A DNA stretch of 43,593 nucleotides from Rudanella lutea DSM 19387 (lineage in GTDB: Bacteria > Bacteroidota > Bacteroidia > Cytophagales > Spirosomataceae): contig NZ_KB913013.1 in the NCBI RefSeq assembly GCF_000383955.1, forward strand, positions 1 to 43,593, read 5' to 3'. The notes beneath the pieces are model-generated. The model had not been told where the DNA came from, made no database searches, and worked only from the letters and a program-made list of their open reading frames with translations. Each line of letters opens with the position of its first letter. Positions within the stretch are counted from its first letter, which is position 1. This document shows, in pieces, positions 20,765 to 43,593 of the stretch. Made by a program: the position numbers and the translations under genes.

Positions 20765-21691
20765 ATGTCCGTACTAACCGCCAACACTTTATTCCATTTC
20801 ACCAAAAAGGATGCTTTGCTAGGAATCTTAAGTACAGGTTTCCGACCATCTTACAGTCCAGAATTTGGCGACCATAACTTTCCTACACTACCTGAGATGC
20901 ACATTCCTATGGTTTGTTTCTGCGACCTGCCATTATCAAGGTTGCAAAACCACATTCATGGGTACAAATGGAATTTCAATGGGGTTGATCGGCAATCGAA
21001 ACAGTACGGCAAATTTGGTTTAGGTATGAGCAAGGAGTGGGGTACCACGAAAAAGCTCAACCCTGTTACATACATTCAACCTGATTCACATCTACTCCAA
21101 TTTATTCGCTTAACCACTGGTGCTTTATACGATCTATACTTCCCATTAAAAGCCGAATGGGAGAATGATCCAAATGTCAGCCCAGTTGCTAGAAGCTATT
21201 ACTCTAATCCATTGACCAGATTCATGGCGGCAGGAATGCCTACACCACCTCTAAGCTATAAGAGATTCAATATCTCTGAACATGGATACTCCAATGCTGT
21301 CGCTATGTGCGCTTATCTAAAACCGTATCGAGACCCTCTAACAGGACAACAATATTATGACGAGCGAGAGTGGCGGTATGTTATTCCTTACACAAAAACG
21401 GAACCTGGAACTGTTCCTCCATTGACGGTATTTGAAGGTAAATTAGTCCCTGTTATCGGTCATGAAAAAGGTATAGAATGGGATATTGATATGTTTAAGA
21501 AAAACATAGAGCGTGATTACATGCTCACCTTCAACCCATCAGATGTAAAGTACATAATCGTTGAAAGTGATAGTGACATTCATGACATAATTACGCTGAT
21601 GAAAGGGTTACCCGACAAGTATACAAGCGACGATATAGACAGATTAGTCACTAGAATAATTACCTGCGAACAACTCAAGGAAGACTTCTAA
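20765..21691 (+). CDS. AbiGi-family abortive-infection protein (moron)
   Basis: This 308-aa protein is on the strand opposite to all its neighbours. The N-terminus LFHFTKKDALLGILSTGFRP (about 10-29), then MVCFCDLPLSRLQNH (about 55-69), YGKFGLGMSKEWG (about 81-93) and DEREWRYVIPY (about 198-208) match the AbiGi family (PF10899, described as the antitoxin half of a lactococcal abortive infection pair). The HFT..LL.IL..GF pattern is also like the start of ADP-ribosyltransferase-fold families such as DarT, so an enzymatic role is possible (inference). GC content is clearly lower than in flanking genes, and terminators bound it at 20670 and 21691, so it is an acquired, self-contained cargo gene. 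No partner gene (AbiGii-like) is visible next to it. Confidence 0.8.
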   Translation: MSVLTANTLFHFTKKDALLGILSTGFRPSYSPEFGDHNFPTLPEMHIPMVCFCDLPLSRLQNHIHGYKWNFNGVDRQSKQYGKFGLGMSKEWGTTKKLNPVTYIQPDSHLLQFIRLTTGALYDLYFPLKAEWENDPNVSPVARSYYSNPLTRFMAAGMPTPPLSYKRFNISEHGYSNAVAMCAYLKPYRDPLTGQQYYDEREWRYVIPYTKTEPGTVPPLTVFEGKLVPVIGHEKGIEWDIDMFKKNIERDYMLTFNPSDVKYIIVESDSDIHDIITLMKGLPDKYTSDDIDRLVTRIITCEQLKEDF

Positions 21692-21727
21692 ACAGAAAAG
21701 GCCCGGATGATCCGGGCCTTTTCTGTT
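21691..21727. terminator. Perfect 17-bp convergent terminator
   Basis: Arms 21691-21707 and 21711-21727 pair perfectly around a TGA loop, beginning at the last base of the AbiGi stop and ending at the stop of the minus-strand gene. It serves both convergent genes. Confidence 0.92.
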
Positions 21728-22299
21728 TACTCAAACAAACTCGTACCGCTGGGGTCGCTGATCGCCTTCATGGCTTGCCGTCGCATCTCCAGCTCACCCT
21801 CAATCTCGGCATGAGGGTGCAGCCGCGTACCCTCGTCGAAGAAGTGCGACCAGCTACGCTTGAGCTGTCGGCCGCGCTCGTTATGCTTGTCGAGCGCAAA
21901 GTCGGGAATCTCCAAGCGCCTGAAGGGATGGGTGAGCCACGCCCAGATCAGCGACCAGTCGATCATGCGCGACTTACGGGCCCGGCTCAACAACAGCACC
22001 GCGTGGGTCAGAAACAACCGCTGCGGCTCATTTTTATCTTCCTTCTTCTTAGCCTGCTCCTGATGCATCCGGTATAGGGCCCAAATCTGCGCGGGCATCG
22101 TTGGCTCAGCCAGGCCCACGTCTTCGCTGCTCATTATTCGGAGCCGCTTCCAGGCGTATTCCACATAGCCCGAATCGTACAGCTCCACCGCCCAGTACAG
22201 GGCCTCGGCTTCGCGGCCCCGCCGGATACACTTTTGCATGGCACTGCTGACCTCGTAGAAGTCGTAGCCTTTCTTGGTGCGTAGGTCATACTTGCTCAT
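21727..22299 (-). CDS. RarA/MgsA C-terminal-domain-like protein without the AAA ATPase
   Basis: The 190-aa product resembles the C-terminal oligomerisation region of RarA (MgsA), the replication-fork and recombination ATPase. It has YDFYEVSSAMQKCIRRG (about 13-29), AEALYWAVELYDSG (about 32-45) and YAWKRLRIMSSEDVGLAEP (about 49-67), the family's ED-[IV]-G-L-A signature. The N-terminal AAA domain is absent and no Walker motifs occur. It could act as a stand-alone partner or dominant interfering form on the host fork protein (inference). It is coupled by ATGA to the SymE-like gene upstream. ATG 22299 is chosen; the longer frame lies in that gene. Confidence 0.72.
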   Translation of the reverse strand: MSKYDLRTKKGYDFYEVSSAMQKCIRRGREAEALYWAVELYDSGYVEYAWKRLRIMSSEDVGLAEPTMPAQIWALYRMHQEQAKKKEDKNEPQRLFLTHAVLLLSRARKSRMIDWSLIWAWLTHPFRRLEIPDFALDKHNERGRQLKRSWSHFFDEGTRLHPHAEIEGELEMRRQAMKAISDPSGTSLFE

Positions 22300-22469
22300 G
22301 CCTCTATCGTGATTTTTCCGTTTTCGACTGTTACCCGTACCTGTTGCCCGATCTGAAACCCGGCCTCGGCCATCCACCGCCCGCCCAGGTTGAGTGCCGG
22401 CAGAAAACTGAATTGGCGGTAACGGTTTTTGCGGGCGCAGTAGCCCAGCTTTCGATTTTTCGCGTACAT
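22296..22469 (-). CDS. SymE-like small protein (AbrB-type fold)
   Basis: The product has 57 residues. The C-terminal two thirds, LPALNLGGRWMAEAGFQIGQ followed by QVRVTVENGKITI, is the signature of the SymE toxin family (PF08845), known from an SOS-induced type I toxin-antitoxin pair in E. coli. The N-terminus is basic and Tyr-rich. In phages this domain may instead be a small regulator. ATG 22469 is preferred over a longer frame that would run through a hairpin. A GGAATGTTC leader element begins 34 nt upstream. The stop overlaps the next start (ATGA). Confidence 0.75.
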   Translation of the reverse strand: MYAKNRKLGYCARKNRYRQFSFLPALNLGGRWMAEAGFQIGQQVRVTVENGKITIEA

Positions 22470-22494
22470 TCGCACTGTCGATTTATTAGTTATT

Positions 22495-22503
22495 GAACAT
22501 TCC
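22495..22503 (-). promoter_or_regulatory. GGAATGTTC leader element before the SymE-like gene
   Basis: The minus strand reads CAGGAATGTTCAATAACTAA and continues AATAAAT, ending 25 nt before ATG 22469. The motif itself contains a mini-ORF (Met-Phe-Asn-Asn-stop). One of five exact GGAATGTTC copies on this strand. Confidence 0.45.
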
Positions 22504-22516
22504 TGGTAATTGACAC

Positions 22517-22544
22517 GAAGGCCGGTGCTCCAACACCGGCCTTC
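22517..22544 (-). terminator. Hairpin after the 22550 gene
   Basis: An 11-bp perfect stem GAAGGCCGGTG (22517-22527) with CACCGGCCTTC (22534-22544), 6-nt loop, between the 22550 stop and the SymE leader element. No T-run on the minus strand, so termination is uncertain; on the plus strand it is followed by TTCGTTT. Confidence 0.5.
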
Positions 22545-22549
22545 TTCGT

Positions 22550-22756
22550 TTAGAATAGGCTCACCTGAGCCACATTGATCTGCTTCCGGCGCATCCCGCT
22601 CCGGATCGTCATCCAGGCATCGCGCAGGCACTCACCAAAAAACAACCAGACCTTCTTTCTCCAGAGTCGGTGGGCCTCCTGCATGACCAGGCGCAACAGG
22701 GTCTTCTTCTTTGTCATTTTCGGATTCTCGTAAGGGCGGGGCTTGCGGATATACAT
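22550..22756 (-). CDS. Small basic protein with a C-terminal clamp-binding-like motif
   Basis: The product is 68 aa. The middle segment (LLRLVMQEAHRLWRKK, then GECLRDAWMTIR) resembles short helical proteins of phages with an AH...ALxxAW pattern. The last six residues are AQVSLF, close to the beta-clamp-binding pentapeptide QL(S/D)LF. It starts in a TAATG overlap with the gene upstream and belongs to a string of tiny early genes. Function unknown; recruitment to the replication fork is an inference. Confidence 0.6.
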   Translation of the reverse strand: MYIRKPRPYENPKMTKKKTLLRLVMQEAHRLWRKKVWLFFGECLRDAWMTIRSGMRRKQINVAQVSLF

Positions 22757-22914
22757 TACTGTGGGCGGTTAAGGGTGAAGGTTACGAATTCGACCAGGCA
22801 GGCGGGGTACTCAACGGCAAACATGCCGAGGGCGGTGCCCATGCATAGGGCCTGAAACATGGCGCGGCCTTCCAAACCGCACGGTTCCGTGAAATGAATT
22901 GTGTACGTGAACAT
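22756..22914 (-). CDS. 52-aa protein of unknown function
   Basis: The product (MFTYTIHFTEPCGLEGRAMF at the start, ending FVTFTLNRPQ) is short. Its TAA overlaps the next ATG (TAATG), which supports translation. The start codon is the ATG inside a GGAATGTTC element, unlike the other copies where the element lies in the leader. No family is recognised. Confidence 0.5.
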   Translation of the reverse strand: MFTYTIHFTEPCGLEGRAMFQALCMGTALGMFAVEYPACLVEFVTFTLNRPQ

Positions 22915-22917
22915 TCC
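22909..22917 (-). promoter_or_regulatory. GGAATGTTC element used as a start site
   Basis: Minus strand TACAGGAATGTTCACG. Here the ATG in the motif is the probable start of the 52-aa gene, which suggests that the element is a ribosome-loading site as much as a promoter. Confidence 0.4.
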
Positions 22918-22939
22918 TGTACTTGTTTAAAGTGAACGA

Positions 22940-23161
22940 TTATGAATTGAGCAAGAAACTCCGTTGGTAGATCGCGAAATCAAGGTTCTCAAACGTCCCT
23001 AATCCCTCGATGTGGTAGTAAGACCGGCCATTAGCTCCGAAGTGGCTGTAACCCGCGAAATGGTCCATTGTGGCCGCCGTAACGGCTACTTTGCGGAGCG
23101 ATTCAATGCGGATTCCGTACTGGTTCAGGTGCTGCTGGGCTTTAATCTCGATGGCCTTCAT
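22940..23161 (-). CDS. Small early protein of unknown function
   Basis: The 73-aa product starts MKAIEIKAQQHLNQYGIRIE. It ends GTFENLDFAIYQRSFLLNS. The open frame extends to 23257 but that part is the 62-bp repeat, which I read as a leader, so ATG 23161 is chosen. Helical N-terminus, then a beta-rich half (AGYSHFGANGRSYYHIEGLG). No recognisable motif. Confidence 0.55.
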   Translation of the reverse strand: MKAIEIKAQQHLNQYGIRIESLRKVAVTAATMDHFAGYSHFGANGRSYYHIEGLGTFENLDFAIYQRSFLLNS

Positions 23162-23195
23162 GTCGTGTTGTGTTTGACTGACTACACTGTAAGTA

Positions 23196-23257
23196 TCTCC
23201 CGGCAAAACGGATAGACAACACGTCAATCCAAATAAATTTTTGTCATACATCGCCAT
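23196..23257 (-). repeat. 62-bp direct repeat, copy A (leader of the 23161 gene)
   Basis: Identical to 24777-24838. It ends 35 bp before ATG 23161. Both copies are followed on the minus strand by a TTACAG sequence. Likely a duplicated promoter or operator; the first codons it could encode differ after the repeat, so it is unlikely to be coding. Confidence 0.8.
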
Positions 23258-23269
23258 TTTTTTAGGCCC

Positions 23270-24058
23270 TCAAAACAGGCTTAATTGGCCATATTTGGCG
23301 GTTTTTGCGGCCGGTGGCTGGGGCGGTGGCAGGTCGGGCTGGTGCTTCTTTTTCTCGGCCCACTCGGCCTTTTCCCGCTGCCAGAGACGCCACGTGTGGC
23401 ACTGCTCTTTCTGGATCGGCACAATCGCCGGGATGCCCGTGTAGCGCAGGGTACGGTTTATGTCGTAGCCAAACCGCCAGTCGTCGGGGTTAAGTGAGTC
23501 CATGCACACAGCCTGCCCTACGCAGCCATGTAAGCACATATTCACGGCCGTCATCCGGGCGCAGATCGAGTCCAGGTCGGCCCCAAACTGGTAGTTGCCC
23601 GGAGCCACCGCGTGCGACGCAATCAGCATGCGGCCTGAGCCACTAGCTGGGTCATTGATCAGTAACCCTTTGCCCGTTTGCTCTGGAGTAGTTGTGATAC
23701 GGGTCATGAACTCGACCACGTGGGGCGGGGTGAAAAACTGACCGAGCACGTCGCGCTTACCCCGACCGCACAGAGTCTCGTAGAAAGTACCCAGGGCATC
23801 GTACCAGGCATGGTCGCCATCGCCAACCATCCGCTGCTGCAGCATCACCCACTCGCGGGTCATCCGGACGAACCAATCCAGGTCTTTGTGCTTTTTCTTC
23901 AGCCGCTCGTACTCGCCCTGACGGATGGGCATAAACGACTCCACCAGAAAGTCGACCCAGTCGCGGAACGAGTCAGCGTAATCCCACGAATAGTCTTTTT
24001 CGGAAAATATCTTGTTAAGTGCCCGCAGCTCGTGCGGCACGTCGGTGCTCTTCGGCAT
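23270..24058 (-). CDS. N6-adenine methylase-like protein lacking the NPPY motif
   Basis: The product is 262 aa. It resembles the HsdM class: GQFFTPPHVVEFMTRI (about 105-120) is the target/cofactor region that precedes motif I, and NDPASGSGRMLIASH (about 134-148) is the SAM-binding motif I. After VCMDSLNPDDW the catalytic NPP(Y/F) motif IV expected for an adenine methylase is missing, and the chain ends with a Pro-rich tail and the residues YGQLSLF, an exact beta-clamp-binding pentapeptide (QLSLF). So it may bind SAM but not methylate. It may be a decoy or regulator, or a subunit working with another protein. The terminator at 24071 lies just upstream. Confidence 0.72.
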   Translation of the reverse strand: MPKSTDVPHELRALNKIFSEKDYSWDYADSFRDWVDFLVESFMPIRQGEYERLKKKHKDLDWFVRMTREWVMLQQRMVGDGDHAWYDALGTFYETLCGRGKRDVLGQFFTPPHVVEFMTRITTTPEQTGKGLLINDPASGSGRMLIASHAVAPGNYQFGADLDSICARMTAVNMCLHGCVGQAVCMDSLNPDDWRFGYDINRTLRYTGIPAIVPIQKEQCHTWRLWQREKAEWAEKKKHQPDLPPPQPPAAKTAKYGQLSLF

Positions 24059-24070
24059 AGCTATAAAATG

Positions 24071-24096
24071 AAAAAGCCCCTCCGGTTGGAGGGGCT
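24071..24096 (-). terminator. Intrinsic terminator after the 24103 gene
   Basis: A 9-bp stem AGCCCCTCC (24075-24083) with GGAGGGGCT (24088-24096), 4-nt loop, followed on the minus strand by five Ts. Confidence 0.85.
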
Positions 24097-24102
24097 GAGT
24101 GA

Positions 24103-24738
24103 TCAGAATGGAACGGGGGTTTCTTCTTCCTGAGCCTGCTCGATCAGGCCCACCAACGCTTCGGCATATCGCTTCGAGAGCTTAAAGCCGAACAGCTCCA
24201 GCCAGCGTTTTTCCAGATCGTCCAGTTGACGACGGTGAACAGTTCGGTACTTACCCGGCTTCCACTGAATTACAAACTCGATCAGGTCGTTTTCGGTCAC
24301 CTCGCCATTGTAGTAGTCGCTGATCTCCATCGCCTGCACATCGAGCGGGGTACCTTCGGCATGAAACCAGCTCTTTGCTACATCTGTCAACCAGTTTTTG
24401 TCACCCCAACGCTCGAAGTTCTCTTTCGGGAATGGCCGCAGGTGCTCGTTGATAGCCCCCTCTTTGCTGAAGTCATTCCGTTCTTCAGCCAGCAGCTCCA
24501 GATAAATCGTGGCCAGCTCCATCGGGTTCTGGCTGCTGGTACGTACCAGGTCACCGGCCTCGTGAGGCTCAATAAAGGCCGGAATGATCGTGACCGGGAT
24601 AAACTGCATCGCAAAGCGTAGCAGCTGTTGGTGTTTGTGCGAATTGTCGATACGCTGCCCTACCTGAGACGCGAAGCGGTTATAATCTTCCTCGGTGGCA
24701 CCCTCGTTACGCTGAAAGAAATTTGACTTACTCGACAT
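24103..24738 (-). CDS. Protein of unknown function, early or accessory
   Basis: The 211-aa product is mostly helical and acidic, with FQRNEGATEEDYNRF at the start, a central KENFERWGDKNWLTD segment, and a C-terminal helix (KRWLELFGFKLSKRYAEALV). No motif is recognised. It is the only gene between the second 62-bp repeat and the terminator at 24071, so it is a separate transcription unit. An inverted repeat (24743-24773) and a variant of the early leader motif lie directly upstream. Confidence 0.6.
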   Translation of the reverse strand: MSSKSNFFQRNEGATEEDYNRFASQVGQRIDNSHKHQQLLRFAMQFIPVTIIPAFIEPHEAGDLVRTSSQNPMELATIYLELLAEERNDFSKEGAINEHLRPFPKENFERWGDKNWLTDVAKSWFHAEGTPLDVQAMEISDYYNGEVTENDLIEFVIQWKPGKYRTVHRRQLDDLEKRWLELFGFKLSKRYAEALVGLIEQAQEEETPVPF

Positions 24739-24742
24739 TGTG

Positions 24743-24773
24743 TTACAGAGTTATTAGTTATTGAACTCTGTAA
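24743..24773 (-). promoter_or_regulatory. Inverted repeat in the leader of the 24738 gene
   Basis: TTACAGAGTT (24743-24752) and AACTCTGTAA (24764-24773) are perfect complements around 11 nt that hold a variant of the early leader motif (TTCAATAACTAATAA on the minus strand). It begins 5 bp before the ATG and adjoins the second 62-bp repeat. A likely operator or RNA switch. Confidence 0.5.
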
Positions 24774-24776
24774 ACT

Positions 24777-24838
24777 TCTCCCGGCAAAACGGATAGACAA
24801 CACGTCAATCCAAATAAATTTTTGTCATACATCGCCAT
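24777..24838 (-). repeat. 62-bp direct repeat, copy B (leader of the 24738 gene)
   Basis: Exact copy of 23196-23257. Both copies lie in the same orientation upstream of a minus-strand gene, 39 bp before the ATG here and 35 bp in the other case. A further CTGTAA flank is shared with 3 mismatched bases between. Confidence 0.8.
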
Positions 24839-25043
24839 CTCCCGAGGCTCCAACGGTGCCCATATCTGCACAAAATTTTGCAGCCCAAAAAACTGCACAC
24901 CGCAGTTGTCGCAGCCCTAAAAACAAGCATCTCCCATCTTCAAAGCGGCAAAAATGGCACATATAGGTTCATTTGGCACAAATGGTCCCTAATGACCATC
25001 GCCTAAAAAAGCCTGCTGCAACTTGCCCCTAAACCAAAAAGTA

Positions 25044-25193
25044 ATGAAGATGCTTAACACCAAAAAGCGGATTAGAAAACGCTTGATAACCTACCGGAAT
25101 ACCCTCAAAGCAACCAGGCTCGTGGAGCGAGTAATTAAAATTATGAACGCTATTGTTGAGCTGTTGGAGAATGCAGGAGACAACCTTATCTAA
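25044..25193 (+). CDS. Possible small basic helical protein (plus strand)
   Basis: A 49-codon frame, MKMLNTKKRIRKRLITYRNT to the end ELLENAGDNLI, is strongly basic in its first half and amphipathic in the second. It converges on the terminator hairpin shared with the candidate RNA on the other strand. No Shine-Dalgarno and no clear promoter. It could be a small DNA- or RNA-binding regulator, or a chance frame; low confidence. The stretch 24839-25043 otherwise shows no gene. Confidence 0.35.
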   Translation: MKMLNTKKRIRKRLITYRNTLKATRLVERVIKIMNAIVELLENAGDNLI

Positions 25194-25194
25194 C

Positions 25195-25223
25195 GAAAAG
25201 CCCCCAACGATTTGTTGGGGGCT
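25195..25223. terminator. Terminator of the candidate RNA
   Basis: A 10-bp stem AGCCCCCAAC (25199-25208) with GTTGGGGGCT (25214-25223), loop of five. Four Ts follow on the minus strand. It can also stop plus-strand transcription from the 25044 frame, though less strongly. Confidence 0.82.
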
Positions 25224-25432
25224 ATGCCCTTTCGGGCGGGCGTGTATAGGCAACTTACCTGACTTCAACCGATCACTGGGTTCACCCGACGTATCAGGTA
25301 TCACAACCTGAAGGTACCAGCTCTTTCGTCCATCAGGCAGTACTGCCCTCTGTTGGTTGCTTGGCTCTTTCGAGCCGTGCCGGTTTCGCTTTGTTATCCG
25401 GCTATTAATAGAGAAATCAGCAGGCTGAAGTC
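25195..25432 (-). ncRNA. Candidate structured non-coding RNA (about 238 nt)
   Basis: The minus strand can fold into an ordered structure. A long-range 10-bp stem closes it: GACTTCAGCC (25432-25423) with GGTTGAAGTC (25270-25261), one G-U pair. Inside are GCCGG-CCGGC (25402-25379), GGCTC-GAAA-GAGCC (25376-25363, GNRA loop), GGCA-GTAC-TGCC (25347-25336) and TCAGGT-ACCTGA (25311-25294). After the closing stem come GCCC-GAAA-GGGC (25237-25226, GNRA loop) and a 10-bp terminator hairpin with four Ts. A promoter-like pair of boxes precedes the first stem directly. A poor 153-codon frame covers the region but spans the terminator. No known RNA family is recognised. Confidence 0.6.
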
Positions 25433-25433
25433 T

Positions 25434-25464
25434 CAAAAGAATCAACCCTATTAATACGCCAAAA
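25434..25464 (-). promoter_or_regulatory. Promoter-like boxes before the candidate RNA
   Basis: Minus strand TTTTG (25464-25460), 18 bp, then TTCTTTTG (25441-25434), one mismatch from the Bacteroidota -7 consensus TAnnTTTG. The closing stem of the RNA begins two bases later, in the position expected for a transcript 5' end. It falls in the 10 bp after the 25475 gene. Confidence 0.5.
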
Positions 25465-25474
25465 CTATTATCTG

Positions 25475-25708
25475 TTAGGCATCTGTACAAGACCGTAGCA
25501 GAGCAAACAGGAATAAAAGTAATCCGATAACAAAAAAACCAGAAAGCAACTCCGTTAACGACATGCCAGATTCTTCCTTCTTTTGTCCGGGTTGTTCTAG
25601 TACAAAACGATCAGGCGTTACCTCCAGACGGAACGGCTCACCAGATTGTAGCTTTCTATCTAAGCGGTTACGCAGCTCTTGGGGTAGTTTACCGTAGTCG
25701 AAGTCCAT
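25475..25708 (-). CDS. Small protein with a C-terminal membrane anchor
   Basis: The product is 77 aa. The N-terminal part (GKLPQELRNRLDRKLQSGEP, then FRLEVTPDRFVLE) is a small soluble domain; one hydrophobic helix (GFFVIGLLLFLFALL, about 57-71) ends the chain. Its ATG overlaps the glycosyltransferase stop (TGATG), so it is co-translated with it and with the ParB-like gene. Function unknown. Confidence 0.62.
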   Translation of the reverse strand: MDFDYGKLPQELRNRLDRKLQSGEPFRLEVTPDRFVLEQPGQKKEESGMSLTELLSGFFVIGLLLFLFALLRSCTDA

Positions 25709-26442
25709 CAGAAAGGCAGTTTTAGCGTTTTCTGAAACGGGTGACGAGGGTTTTTGCTCTTCTTAAGCGTTATCACCTCCGACCCGAATACGCCCTGAAG
25801 GTACGCAAAATCGCGTTCTTCCGCATCGAGGTTGCGGTGCTCGGCCTGCCCCCCACGGGCCACAAAGGTATCCACCTGATTAAAGTAGAAACGCATATCC
25901 AGATACGCCATTCGGTGCTTGTACGCGTTCAGGGCCGATATCCAGTAATCGCAGTTGCACGTGATGTTCGTGTCCCACCAGAGGCCAGAGCCGGCCAGCA
26001 AGCCAAACGCGCAGCCATTTACCCAACCCGTCAGCTGCACCGGCTTCATGGGGTTATAGGCAGTAGGGTTCGGCGTATCAGCAAAGCCAAACAGATAGAT
26101 ACCCATTTGGCGGGTAACGTCGGCCGAGTGCTGAATCAGGTCATAAACCTCTTTGGGTTGCATCATGATCGGCTCACCCCGGTCGGTGTAAATCCGCCTA
26201 ACGGCACTAATATCATCGTCGATCATGAACACACTCCCGAAGTGTTTATAAATCCAGTTACGCTTTTGCTGGAGCCCGATCACCGAATCCGGGTGCGTCA
26301 CCACCTCCACCAGCGGATTGCTTCGACGGTACATTTCGCCCTGGTTTTCGGGCACGCAGATAATCGCATTATCTACTACCTGCGTGGTGCGCAGGCTCGA
26401 CCACCGCTTATGGCTCGGTATTACGATCTTGACGTTTTCCAT
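25708..26442 (-). CDS. GT-A glycosyltransferase, similar to phage DNA-base glycosyltransferases (TAGT-like)
   Basis: The 244-aa product opens with VKIVIPSHKRWSSL (about 4-17), a nucleotide-sugar-binding start, and has the metal-binding acidic motif FMIDDDISAV (about 72-81). Downstream are NGCAFGLLAGSGLWWD and CNCDYWISALNAYKHR, typical acceptor-side features. This combination fits the TET-associated glycosyltransferase family that sugar-decorates modified bases in phage DNA. The gene overlaps the ParB-like gene by 22 bp. No enzyme that hydroxymethylates or oxidises bases is visible in the window, so the acceptor is unknown: another base modification, a protein or a glycan are all possible. Confidence 0.68.
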   Translation of the reverse strand: MENVKIVIPSHKRWSSLRTTQVVDNAIICVPENQGEMYRRSNPLVEVVTHPDSVIGLQQKRNWIYKHFGSVFMIDDDISAVRRIYTDRGEPIMMQPKEVYDLIQHSADVTRQMGIYLFGFADTPNPTAYNPMKPVQLTGWVNGCAFGLLAGSGLWWDTNITCNCDYWISALNAYKHRMAYLDMRFYFNQVDTFVARGGQAEHRNLDAEERDFAYLQGVFGSEVITLKKSKNPRHPFQKTLKLPF

Positions 26443-27041
26443 CGCTCAATGAATTTAGTGCCGTCAATAACCCGCGTCATACCCATCGTCTCACTCTTGT
26501 ACGATTTCTCCCGGTCGCAACCCAGCAGCTCCGCAATATGATTAGCGTCGATCTCATTACGGGCCACAATCACAAAGGCGTCGTATTTCTCCGAAAACTT
26601 AGCCACAATAGGCATTTCGGGCGTTTCGGTCTTCTCCGTGGCTTTCTGATGCAGCTCTTCCATTTCGGCCAGGCTAATGCCAAAATCAGCCAGGTCCACA
26701 TCACTAAAGTGCTCGCGCAGGATCTCGTCCACCCAATCGCCCTTAATGGCGTTACTGGCAATGTTGTACTCCTTAAACTCCGCATCGGTCAGCAGGCGGT
26801 TTGGCACCCGCACGTCCACCAGCTCATCGCCTTTGCCCAGCTGCACCATGGCCTTACACCGTTGGTGGCCGGCCAGTAGCGTACCGTCAAAATTGATCAC
26901 TGGTATCTCAACCAGGCCAAACCGTTCGAGCGATTCGCGCAGCTTTTTGCTCTGCTGCGCGGTCATCTTACGAGGGTTGTACTCGTAAGGCAATAGGTCA
27001 ACAACTTTGCGCTGCTGCGTACTCCAGACTAACTTCTCCAT
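26421..27041 (-). CDS. ParB/Srx-like nuclease-domain protein
   Basis: The 206-aa product starts with a ParB-like N-terminal domain: VVDLLPYEYNPRKMTAQQS (about 13-31), SLERFGLVEIPVINFDG (about 37-53), and GHQRCKAMVQLGKGDEL (about 57-73), which replaces the GERR/GHRR motif. The second half (DEILREHFSDVDLADFGISL) is the usual extension in phage ParB-like proteins that are found with DNA-modification enzymes. There is no ParA gene, so plasmid-type partition is unlikely. Close coupling with the glycosyltransferase suggests a joint DNA-modification or DNA-marking task (inference). Confidence 0.8.
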   Translation of the reverse strand: MEKLVWSTQQRKVVDLLPYEYNPRKMTAQQSKKLRESLERFGLVEIPVINFDGTLLAGHQRCKAMVQLGKGDELVDVRVPNRLLTDAEFKEYNIASNAIKGDWVDEILREHFSDVDLADFGISLAEMEELHQKATEKTETPEMPIVAKFSEKYDAFVIVARNEIDANHIAELLGCDREKSYKSETMGMTRVIDGTKFIERWKTSRS

Positions 27042-27064
27042 TCGGGTTTTCCGCTCGCGCGGTG

Positions 27065-27709
27065 CTAACTACTCAGTTGAACGTCTATTTCCCGAATCTT
27101 CAGTTCGCATTGCGCCAGCTCCGTTTCCCATTCGGCACGCTTCGAGGGCCGGGCCTTGGGGTTCTCCAGTTTACCCTTCAGTTTCGACCGCTTATCTATC
27201 AACCGCCGTTTCTCGTAAGCCAGCTGGTACCGGCCTTCGTCGTTACCCGGCAATGCCGACAGGCTGCTGGTTTGGGCAATCGGGTCGGGGGGCAACCGGT
27301 GGTTTCGCTCCAGATAGCGTTTCTTATCCCACAAGGCTTCGATCTGTGCCGTCAGGTCCAGAATACTACGCGTCAGCTCCGGGCACGGTACCGACTCCGG
27401 AACCAGGTGTAGCTGGTTGCTCTGGTCGGCACGCCGGCGGCTGAGCGTATCCAGCTCGCGCGACAGATCGGCCTGCAACCGGGCATACTCATCGCCCTCG
27501 AGCACGGGGCCCGTGGCCCGCTCCTGCAGCGGCTCCGGCACTGCCTGGGTGCGCACAGCCGTCGGCTTAAAATCCACTTGCCCCTTCAGATCAGCTAACC
27601 GACGCTGAGCCTGTACCAGATCGGCCGACGTCGCCCGCTTGGTGGCCACCAATTTTTCGAGCATTCGAACAGTTGACTGTTGCTGGAGTATTTGCGCCTG
27701 AAGATTCAT
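27065..27709 (-). CDS. Coiled-coil protein upstream of the ParB-like gene
   Basis: The 214-aa product is nearly all helical coiled coil (ILQQQSTVRMLEKLVATK, LQADLSRELDTLSRRRADQS, LTAQIEALWDKKRYLERNH, EWETELAQCELKIREIDVQL). ATG 27709 is chosen; the longer frame runs through a terminator. It is the first gene after a terminator and has a GTCCTACCGT element 40 nt upstream. Possibly an adaptor for the ParB-like and glycosyltransferase proteins, or a virion-internal protein; no family is seen. Confidence 0.62.
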   Translation of the reverse strand: MNLQAQILQQQSTVRMLEKLVATKRATSADLVQAQRRLADLKGQVDFKPTAVRTQAVPEPLQERATGPVLEGDEYARLQADLSRELDTLSRRRADQSNQLHLVPESVPCPELTRSILDLTAQIEALWDKKRYLERNHRLPPDPIAQTSSLSALPGNDEGRYQLAYEKRRLIDKRSKLKGKLENPKARPSKRAEWETELAQCELKIREIDVQLSS

Positions 27710-27715
27710 AGGCAC

Positions 27716-27738
27716 AAAAAAACCGGCACGTAGCCGGT
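27716..27738 (-). terminator. Terminator in the leader of the 27709 gene
   Basis: ACCGGC (27722-27727) with GCCGGT (27733-27738), then seven Ts on the minus strand. It overlaps the stop of the 28007 gene and lies between the GTCCTACCGT element and ATG 27709. Confidence 0.78.
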
Positions 27739-28007
27739 CACGGTAGGACGTTCGTATCGTCTTCGGGCTCTTCCCCATTCCCTTCATCGGGTTTAGCCTC
27801 GATCATCTGCCGGAACGAGCTGACTATATCCCGGTACGCCCAGGCCTGATGGTCTTCGAGCGGGTCCTGATACCATTCGTCGAGGGGCATATTTTGGGGT
27901 AGGCTCAAATAATGCTCCAGCACAAACGAGAGGTGTGCCGCATCAATCCTGGCAGCGTGAAGGTGAGCGCGTAGGTCGGTGAATCGCGCGGGCGCAGGGA
28001 AAGGCAT
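27738..28007 (-). CDS. Small acidic protein of unknown function
   Basis: The 89-aa product starts MPFPAPARFTDLRAHLHAAR and ends with an acidic tail (GNGEEPEDDTNVLP). An in-frame ATG at 28040 would place the start inside the nested inverted repeat; ATG 28007 avoids this. The helical middle (LSFVLEHYLSLPQNMPL) is not recognised. Position after the capsid genes suggests a head accessory or chaperone, without proof. Confidence 0.55.
   Translation of the reverse strand: MPFPAPARFTDLRAHLHAARIDAAHLSFVLEHYLSLPQNMPLDEWYQDPLEDHQAWAYRDIVSSFRQMIEAKPDEGNGEEPEDDTNVLP
27743..27749 (-). promoter_or_regulatory. GTCCTACCGT element overlapping a stop codon
   Basis: Minus strand; the last codons Val-Leu-Pro-stop of the 28007 gene are part of GTCCTACCGTGA. 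It begins 40 nt before ATG 27709. Element of the five-copy set. Confidence 0.45.
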
Positions 28008-28027
28008 ATATGGAGCCGGTTGGTCAC

Positions 28028-28137
28028 TGCTAACTATCATCCTTCCAGACGACCGTGTCGTACTTACAACGACGTGCCAACCGGCATGTCTTATGGCACG
28101 CCGGTTGGTCGTCTGGACTCGATACTGATAGTTAGCA
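28028..28137 (-). promoter_or_regulatory. 110-bp nested inverted repeat in the leader of the 28007 gene
   Basis: Three nested stems: TGCTAACTATCA (28028-28039) with its complement at 28126-28137; CCAGACGACC (28045-28054) with 28107-28116; and CCAACCGGC (28077-28085) with 28100-28108. An alternative inner stem uses GGCACG/CGTGCC. Located between the terminator at 28150 and ATG 28007, it would form a long structured 5' leader or a cruciform. No riboswitch family is recognised. Confidence 0.6.
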
Positions 28138-28149
28138 TCACAAACATAC

Positions 28150-28183
28150 AAAAAAGCCGACAGCATTGTCTGCTGTCGGCTTT
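28150..28183 (-). terminator. Intrinsic terminator after the 28583 gene
   Basis: A 13-bp perfect stem AAAGCCGACAGCA (28153-28165) with TGCTGTCGGCTTT (28171-28183), 5-nt loop, six Ts on the minus strand. Confidence 0.9.
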
Positions 28184-28199
28184 GGCTACCCCGGACTAT

Positions 28200-28583
28200 C
28201 TACGCTTCCGTGTCGGTGCCGGTCGCGTCCGGGTCAGGCTCCGAGCCATCATAGGGCTCTTCCTGCACCGGTTTCCGGCGGCTGGCCAACCGCTGCTGAA
28301 AGCTCGCCGTAATCGACTCGCGGGCGGCTTCCCGTTCGGCCTCCTGAGCCGCACTGATTTCCTCGGCCGACATACCCGCGTACTTCGAGTTAGCAGCGGC
28401 CCGCTCCTGCGCGTTCTGCAACGTCCGCACAATCAGGCCGATGTTCCCGAGCGGGTCTTTTTCCAGCTGCGAGCCCACAAACTCGTTATTCGTCATCTCG
28501 TTCAACGCCCGTACCGAACCTTTGGCTGCGTTCTCCAGCGACTTGAGGGCCGTTACAATTTTCTTCGTTTCCAGCTTATACAT
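28200..28583 (-). CDS. Helical protein of unknown function, capsid operon
   Basis: The 127-aa product has long helices (TALKSLENAAKGSVRALNEM; VRTLQNAQERAAANSKY; SAAQEAEREAARESITASF) and an acidic, repetitive tail (PDPDATGTDTEA). It is 2 bp from the preceding small gene and ends at a strong terminator, so it closes the capsid transcript. A role in head assembly or tail assembly (chaperone-like) is suggested by position only. Confidence 0.58.
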   Translation of the reverse strand: MYKLETKKIVTALKSLENAAKGSVRALNEMTNNEFVGSQLEKDPLGNIGLIVRTLQNAQERAAANSKYAGMSAEEISAAQEAEREAARESITASFQQRLASRRKPVQEEPYDGSEPDPDATGTDTEA

Positions 28584-43507: not shown

Positions 43508-43593
43508 TTACTACTCATCAAAAACGCCCAAAACACGCTGTTTTGGGCGTTTTATGACCTTCTAGTGGCTTCTTCGAGTCTCGCCTTCGGCAC
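43508..43593. repeat. Right copy of the 86-bp terminal direct repeat
   Basis: Identical to 1-86; see the left copy. It begins 90 bp after the repressor stop. Confidence 0.9.
43521..43553. terminator. Second copy of the perfect hairpin, terminating the repressor gene
   Basis: Same 15-bp stem as 14-46. Located about 100 bp after the repressor stop, it would end that transcript. Confidence 0.8.

Follow-up and report, generated by a model that had tools for sequence, protein, structure and literature searches.

Small RNAs encoded by prophages are an already known class, and DicF of the Qin prophage is reportedly one of its trans-acting members. A recent example is svsR, a trans-acting small RNA of the E. 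coli prophage NC-SV that has been linked to phage resistance (PMC12803456). P2-like and P4-like elements contain prophage accessory hotspots that house anti-phage systems (PMC9122126). The locus described here, a 238 nt stretch on the minus strand (25195–25432) of a 43,593 nt piece of DNA (the window), shares features with both. Our preferred reading, to which we assign a probability of about 0.5, is that an integrase-type prophage of the Bacteroidota carries here, as accessory cargo in a hypervariable slot, an orphan gene for a free-standing small RNA.

The stretch is encoded inside the prophage and outside its protein-coding genes, and would resemble svsR and DicF as a free-standing small RNA gene that plausibly serves the lysogen. 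Expression data, phenotypes and Enterobacteriaceae hosts are on record for svsR and DicF, whereas the present RNA is known from sequence alone; svsR also has homologues across the Enterobacteriaceae (PMC12803456), while our searches found none for this RNA. It probably constitutes no new class and is instead a one-off among regulatory small RNAs of a generally familiar kind; a new RNA class is not demonstrated. Its surroundings recall the P2-like and P4-like hotspots in being a small high-turnover locus, flanked by conserved phage genes on both sides, where relatives carry defence-like cargo; the slot differs in holding a non-coding unit, the terms 'non-coding' and 'sRNA' being absent from the main text of that report (PMC9122126). 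Limited title-level searching of the literature, a weak guide, gave no small RNA from a Bacteroidota prophage.

The window begins and ends with identical 86 nt direct repeats (1–86 and 43508–43593) and opens with an integrase gene (58–1380); the repeat pair and the integrase gene at its left end probably mark attL and attR of a prophage. The presence of tape-measure, terminase and head protease genes, together with the integrase and the end repeats, identifies the window as an integrase-type tailed prophage, located at the start of a 6.3 Mb contig. The adjoining host genes include one for a T9SS type B sorting domain protein and one for AlaRS, for which the nearest records in the plasmid collection are from Bacteroidales (54–56%), indicating that the host is a member of the Bacteroidota. 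A minus-strand module (21727–27787) common to related prophages encodes a 240-residue protein, ParB-like and glycosyltransferase-like (phrog_842) proteins, the product of a gene termed X, and N6-methylase-like and MgsA-C-like proteins; it may be part of a DNA modification pathway.

The RNA lies between two conserved minus-strand genes, the glycosyltransferase-like gene (25708–26442; phrog_842, E = 1.5e-20) and gene X (24103–24738; no Pfam or PHROG match). Of the 222 genomes searched from the host family, 27, own genome included, contain matches to the glycosyltransferase-like protein, some of them fragments, and the order glycosyltransferase–slot–X is kept in 19 of 20 relatives' stretches (L076 ends early). 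The 20 slots, from 19 relatives, are 420 to 2288 nt long, and by eye their frames largely differ, though the last frame of L080 resembles that of L081. PADLOC models of anti-phage defence matched five of eight chosen cargo proteins of the relatives at E values up to 0.01, weakly for L063 and L072 (2e-6 and 4e-5) and strongly for L066, L069 and L078, with no match for the other three. Pfam gave matches above the curated cut-off for five of ten chosen proteins [Abi_alpha (L063), AAA_21 (L066), Trypsin_2 (L069), RadC (L075) and Peptidase_S74 (L073)], below it for two and none for three. The differing frames and the partly defence-like cargo characterize this position as a cargo slot. In L062, a glycosyltransferase fragment (residues 155–244) and an X fragment (residues 1–48) lie between two slots; the border of the slot is duplicated here, and the cargo genes of the two slots differ.

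In the window, the slot contains a 77-residue gene, the RNA, a possible convergent 49-residue frame and a 74 nt duplicate. The start codon of the 77-residue gene (25475–25708, minus strand) overlaps the glycosyltransferase stop by one base; its product has a C-terminal segment that appears hydrophobic by eye, and no significant relative of it was found. The RNA follows ParB-like, glycosyltransferase-like and small membrane genes, the position that the first-pass annotation had assigned to it. The duplicate belongs to a 74 nt direct repeat (95%; 23184–23257 and 24765–24838) in which the 5' end of a 105-residue frame (22940–23257) has been copied upstream of gene X, and is a sign of cassette rearrangement. 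A plus-strand tile of the slot near the start of gene X (about 24730–24930) folds with a z-score of −5.0 (40 shuffles).

In the minimum-energy fold of the RNA, a 10 bp closing helix (5' arm 25423–25432, 3' arm 25261–25270, minus strand; pair probability 0.97–1.00) encloses four hairpins and is followed by a short region and a 10 bp terminator. Hairpin 1 (25379–25402) pairs GCCGG with CCGGC around a 14 nt A-rich loop (pair probability 0.95–0.96), hairpin 2 (25363–25376) is the GAAA tetraloop GGCTCGAAAGAGCC with a GGCTC/GAGCC stem (1.00), hairpin 3 (25331–25352) contains the 12 nt palindrome GGCAGTACTGCC (0.51–0.75) and hairpin 4 (25275–25321) is a long imperfect arm (0.61–0.74), all on the minus strand. 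The long-range helix and the minimum of four enclosed hairpins proposed in the first-pass annotation are both present. Of its two GAAA hairpins, the inner one is firmly predicted; the outer one, GCCCGAAAGGGC (25226–25237, minus strand), exists as sequence, but its pairing is ambiguous, an alternative being predicted with a probability of 0.52.

The minus strand of the 238 nt stretch folds at −93.5 kcal/mol, with z-scores of −4.98 (0 of 200 shuffles as stable) and −5.3 (0 of 500), so that the comparison with shuffled controls that had been suggested comes out at about −5 in favour of a structured RNA. The plus strand of the same stretch gives −2.67 (0 of 500). When the terminator is left out, the minus strand scores −3.55 (2 of 500) and the plus strand −0.6 (133 of 500); the 172 nt core scores −3.68 (0 of 500) and −2.13 (11 of 500), respectively. 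Neither of the two flanking stretches tested has a folding signal on the minus strand (1.7 and 0.8). The z-score is sensitive to the choice of ends, with eleven choices giving −3.0 to −5.7 (300 shuffles each). In a scan of 240 nt tiles, 724 in all with 25 shuffles for each, the one containing half of the RNA (25321–25560) ranks 21st, while that containing nearly all of it (25201–25440; z = −3.99 with 300 shuffles) is outside the best 30 listed, as are the RNA's tiles among the 656 in a scan of the slots. The folding strength is therefore not unique in the window, where other tiles are equal or better.

The non-coding RNAs of retrons have a long-range end-to-end helix that encloses hairpins. 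The present RNA is similar in this respect and differs in the terminator that follows the helix and in its neighbourhood, where no reverse transcriptase was detected among ten neighbouring proteins scanned by Pfam and ten by PHROGs. GOLLD and ROOL (PMC12286853) are likewise structured phage or prophage RNAs with possible self-association, but they are conserved and much larger, are frequently located near tRNA islands and are represented in Rfam; the RNA described here has no Rfam match, and no tRNA gene was found in the window.

Bacteroidota promoters possess a −33 TTTG element with its own spacing. The second box, TAnnTTTG, is placed at −12 to −5 relative to the start (PMC9723704), and the starts given here were positioned by that box-to-start distance. 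Two minus-strand candidates of this type, each with one mismatch, precede the fold: TTTG-N18-TTCTTTTG (25434–25463; predicted start 25429) and CTTG-N20-TAGTTTTG (25460–25491; predicted start 25455). The promoter-like boxes of the first-pass annotation are of the Bacteroidota type rather than sigma-70, for which no promoter is listed at the site; they end at 25434, one base ahead of the first paired base. The whole 43.6 kb contains five minus-strand matches with at most one mismatch, including these two. Start 25429 is three bases inside the helix edge; the chance of a promoter start within 3 nt of that edge, computed post hoc, is about 8e-4, or about 0.01 if two mismatches are allowed. A looser pattern (TTTGN17-20TWNNTTTG) occurs three times in the window versus 0.77 expected (8 of 100 shuffles have as many) and the strict pattern once versus 0.35; on these counts, the pattern alone is weak evidence. 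Beginning the RNA at 25429 removes the first three helix bases and lowers the z-score to −3.92, while beginning it at 25455 gives −5.27 (300 shuffles). At the other end, the claimed 10 bp terminator hairpin is present at 25199–25223 on the minus strand, with seven G–C pairs, a short T tail and pair probabilities of 0.86–1.00. What the first-pass annotation had described as an RNA with its own promoter and terminator stands as a structured non-coding unit with a promoter-like motif and a terminator, a view that draws support from the folding, the strand asymmetry, the promoter position, the tetraloop content and the missing coding signal; its independent transcription is something we infer.

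These boundaries bear on the main rival explanation, which we regard as possible but doubtful, namely that the stretch is the structured 3' untranslated region of the ParB–glycosyltransferase–membrane protein operon, with a fold that protects the end of the message or yields a 3'-UTR-derived RNA. The RNA is on the same strand as the operon, no terminator-like site is listed between the stop of the 77-residue gene (25475) and 25223, and a terminator was predicted in 12 of the 20 relatives' slots, indicating that cargo there often ends with a terminator. In eight of these 12 (L064, L069, L073, L074, L075, L077, L078 and L079), however, the terminator begins 22–85 nt past the stop of the preceding predicted frame, compared with about 250 nt here, and the 172 nt gap of L071 is unstructured (z = +0.16). 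The two promoter candidates at the start of the fold also argue against an untranslated region.

L071 had itself been considered as a case of the same layout: it encodes a 47-residue membrane protein, has a promoter motif of full consensus (TAACTTTG) and a similar A-rich hairpin, and reaches its terminator after 172 nt. It was rejected, as the z-score quoted above (200 shuffles) gives no sign of structure, the stretch matched only itself among 99 stretches downstream of glycosyltransferase relatives and the RNA query missed it; full promoter motifs such as that of L071 occur in six of the 99.

No frame of the RNA appears to be coding. Neither Pfam nor the phage records gave a match for the 153-residue frame that crosses it, and the codon scores of all six frames of 25195–25474 are below those of all 27 trusted prophage genes, the closest being minus-strand frame 0 at −0.092, just under the weakest trusted gene (−0.082). 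This agrees with the earlier dismissal of the open frame as implausible; the 77-residue gene also scores poorly (−0.225), so the codon score is a weak criterion for short genes. The same data weigh on the idea that the stretch is a recombination scar or a decayed cargo gene that folds well by chance and has kept the terminator of the old cargo. We consider this unlikely. It would account for the debris in the slot, where a 74 nt copy of a downstream gene's 5' end occupies 24765–24838 (95%), for a 77-residue gene and a 49-residue frame that lack relatives and have poor codon scores, and for folding that is within the best few percent of tiles without being unique. A decayed gene, though, would not be expected to show strand-biased folding and two C(GAAA)G hairpins, and neither the unmatched 153-residue frame nor any other is coding-like. 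The fold, the tetraloop content, the position of the promoter, the terminator and the missing coding signal are most simply explained together by a free-standing prophage small RNA gene.

The convergent 49-residue frame (25044–25193, plus strand), the reality of which is uncertain, ends beside the terminator. A transcript of this frame could run antisense to part of the RNA, which would make the RNA the partner of a small-peptide toxin in the style of type I toxin–antitoxin systems; this is the least probable of the readings considered. The convergent layout, with the stop at 25193 next to the hairpin at 25199–25223, and the lack of a T run past the hairpin on the plus strand are compatible with it. 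Against it, no plus-strand promoter match with two or fewer mismatches has a start at 24700–25100, the peptide is basic and by eye without a clear membrane segment, and the frame has no relative at E values below 0.02 and a codon score of −0.07, which is at the weak edge.

Relatives of the RNA were sought at several levels. An Rfam search of the whole window gave no match above the gathering threshold, in keeping with the first-pass annotation, which recognized no RNA class in it; with E values up to 10, the region 25000–25600 gave one chance-level match (InvR, E = 2.4, 25030–25114) outside the RNA. A covariance model built from the single sequence (two identical rows) was run against sets of 22, 16 and 82 sources, two of which include the window, and beyond the window gave only E values of 0.59 to 5.1, which we read as chance; in 222 genomes of the family, with stricter filters and up to 12 candidates per genome, it matched its own genome only. 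DNA searches found no relative of the RNA in 99 related genomes (up to seven candidates scored per genome), 390 genomes of the order and 395 of the class (two candidates each) or 218 of the phylum (three each). At E values up to 10, the order search returned short matches in 370 genomes, the best outside the own genome having E = 0.002 over 26–27 bases. One class match (G739; 33 bases, 88%) was set aside as it is located in the 77-residue gene, outside the RNA.

Phage records gave one 25-base match (E = 0.3) and plasmid records none. Two of four exact patterns were absent from IMG/VR and the other two matched 16 loci that we attribute to chance, while one exact pattern was absent from GTDB contigs. 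The 99 stretches that lie downstream of relatives of the glycosyltransferase, drawn from genomes and IMG/VR and representing 96 of 101 loci with some redundancy, yielded no relative of the RNA; the best match spans 28 bases (82%, E = 0.2) over the terminator and is found in L121 and L141. The homologues in related phages that the first-pass annotation had hoped to align were therefore not found, and a conserved structured RNA class is not indicated by the genome, phage, plasmid, IMG/VR and GTDB searches, the sensitivity of which is limited: with few candidates scored per genome, overlapping genome sets and a model based on one sequence, a diverged relative could be missed. Strongly folding tiles do occur in the relatives' slots (seven stretches, six loci); a long inverted repeat or hairpins resembling terminators dominate these, and we took none of them for the same kind of RNA. 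In L067, a very long, near-perfect inverted repeat follows the glycosyltransferase gene between convergent frames, with tile z-scores of −11.9 to −16.0. The RNA was not detected in the same slot of related prophages, which speaks against a conserved partnership with the ParB/glycosyltransferase cluster and argues against the packaging role that had been suggested as well as against other core phage functions.

The RNA contains four CGAAA motifs, compared with 0.33 in shuffled sequences (0 of 1000 with as many). C(GAAA)G hairpins with four or more Watson–Crick pairs number just two in the window, both strands counted, and both are inside the RNA. These loops and the palindromic segments CUAUUAAUAG and GGCAGUACUGCC might allow a self-associating RNA to act as a scaffold or decoy, the palindromes enabling a dimer and the repeated CGAAA loops binding a protein, although we judge this to be very unlikely. 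The predicted gain on dimerization is −16.0 kcal/mol, a value that 3 of 120 shuffles attain and that compares with −10.6 for the average shuffle; part of the gain is domain swapping because the closing helix is exchanged between the copies; the 12 nt palindrome arises in only 2 of 120 shuffles and the CGAAA enrichment in 0 of 1000. These statistics were picked after the sequence was known and are correspondingly weak, a 10 nt palindrome arises in 17 of 120 shuffles, and no homologues were found. One palindrome, CTATTAATAG (25402–25411), lies for the most part in the 5' segment that is predicted to be unpaired in the RNA and has a near-copy, GTATTAATAG (25448–25457), inside the promoter spacer. 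The pair was considered as an operator and discarded, with six matches (three sites) versus 2.3 expected and as many in 7 of 100 shuffles, which is not significant over the window.

The fold, the sequence boundaries, the absent coding signal and the position in a cargo slot are established by computation; from these we infer transcription, action in trans, a target and a benefit. For a free-standing prophage small RNA, transcription would begin at or just before 25429 from a phylum-type promoter, as the motif suggests, and would end at the intrinsic terminator near 25195. The transcript is predicted to fold into a closed multi-branch domain with a short 3' region. Its anatomy would best suit a trans-acting regulator, which might base-pair through its unpaired stretches, the 20 nt 5' segment and the A-rich loop of hairpin 1, or alternatively bind a protein through the CGAAA loops, presumably serving the lysogen or the prophage. 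None of seven segments was more complementary to phage translation starts than shuffled sequences were (0.13 to 0.92 of the shuffles were as good).

A more specific proposal, which we regard as distinctly unlikely, is that a non-coding RNA serves as cargo of a defence-type hotspot in a Bacteroidota prophage, self-folding and perhaps self-associating, its CGAAA loops binding a protein of the host or of a competing phage to the advantage of the lysogen. If the RNA is transcribed and active, then cargo slots that in relatives are filled with protein genes, some of them defence-like, can also hold RNA genes, and such slots would deserve screening for non-coding cargo.

Two further features of the window were observed. 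An AbiGi-like gene (20765–21691, plus strand; Pfam PF10899, E = 1.5e-21; PADLOC AbiGi, E = 1.4e-37) is on the strand opposite to its neighbours, and the sole full Bacteroidota promoter match of the window (0.35 expected by chance) is situated just upstream of it. The strongest fold in the window scan belongs to the tile 27961–28200, with z-scores of −8.4 on the minus strand and −6.5 on the plus strand (25 shuffles).
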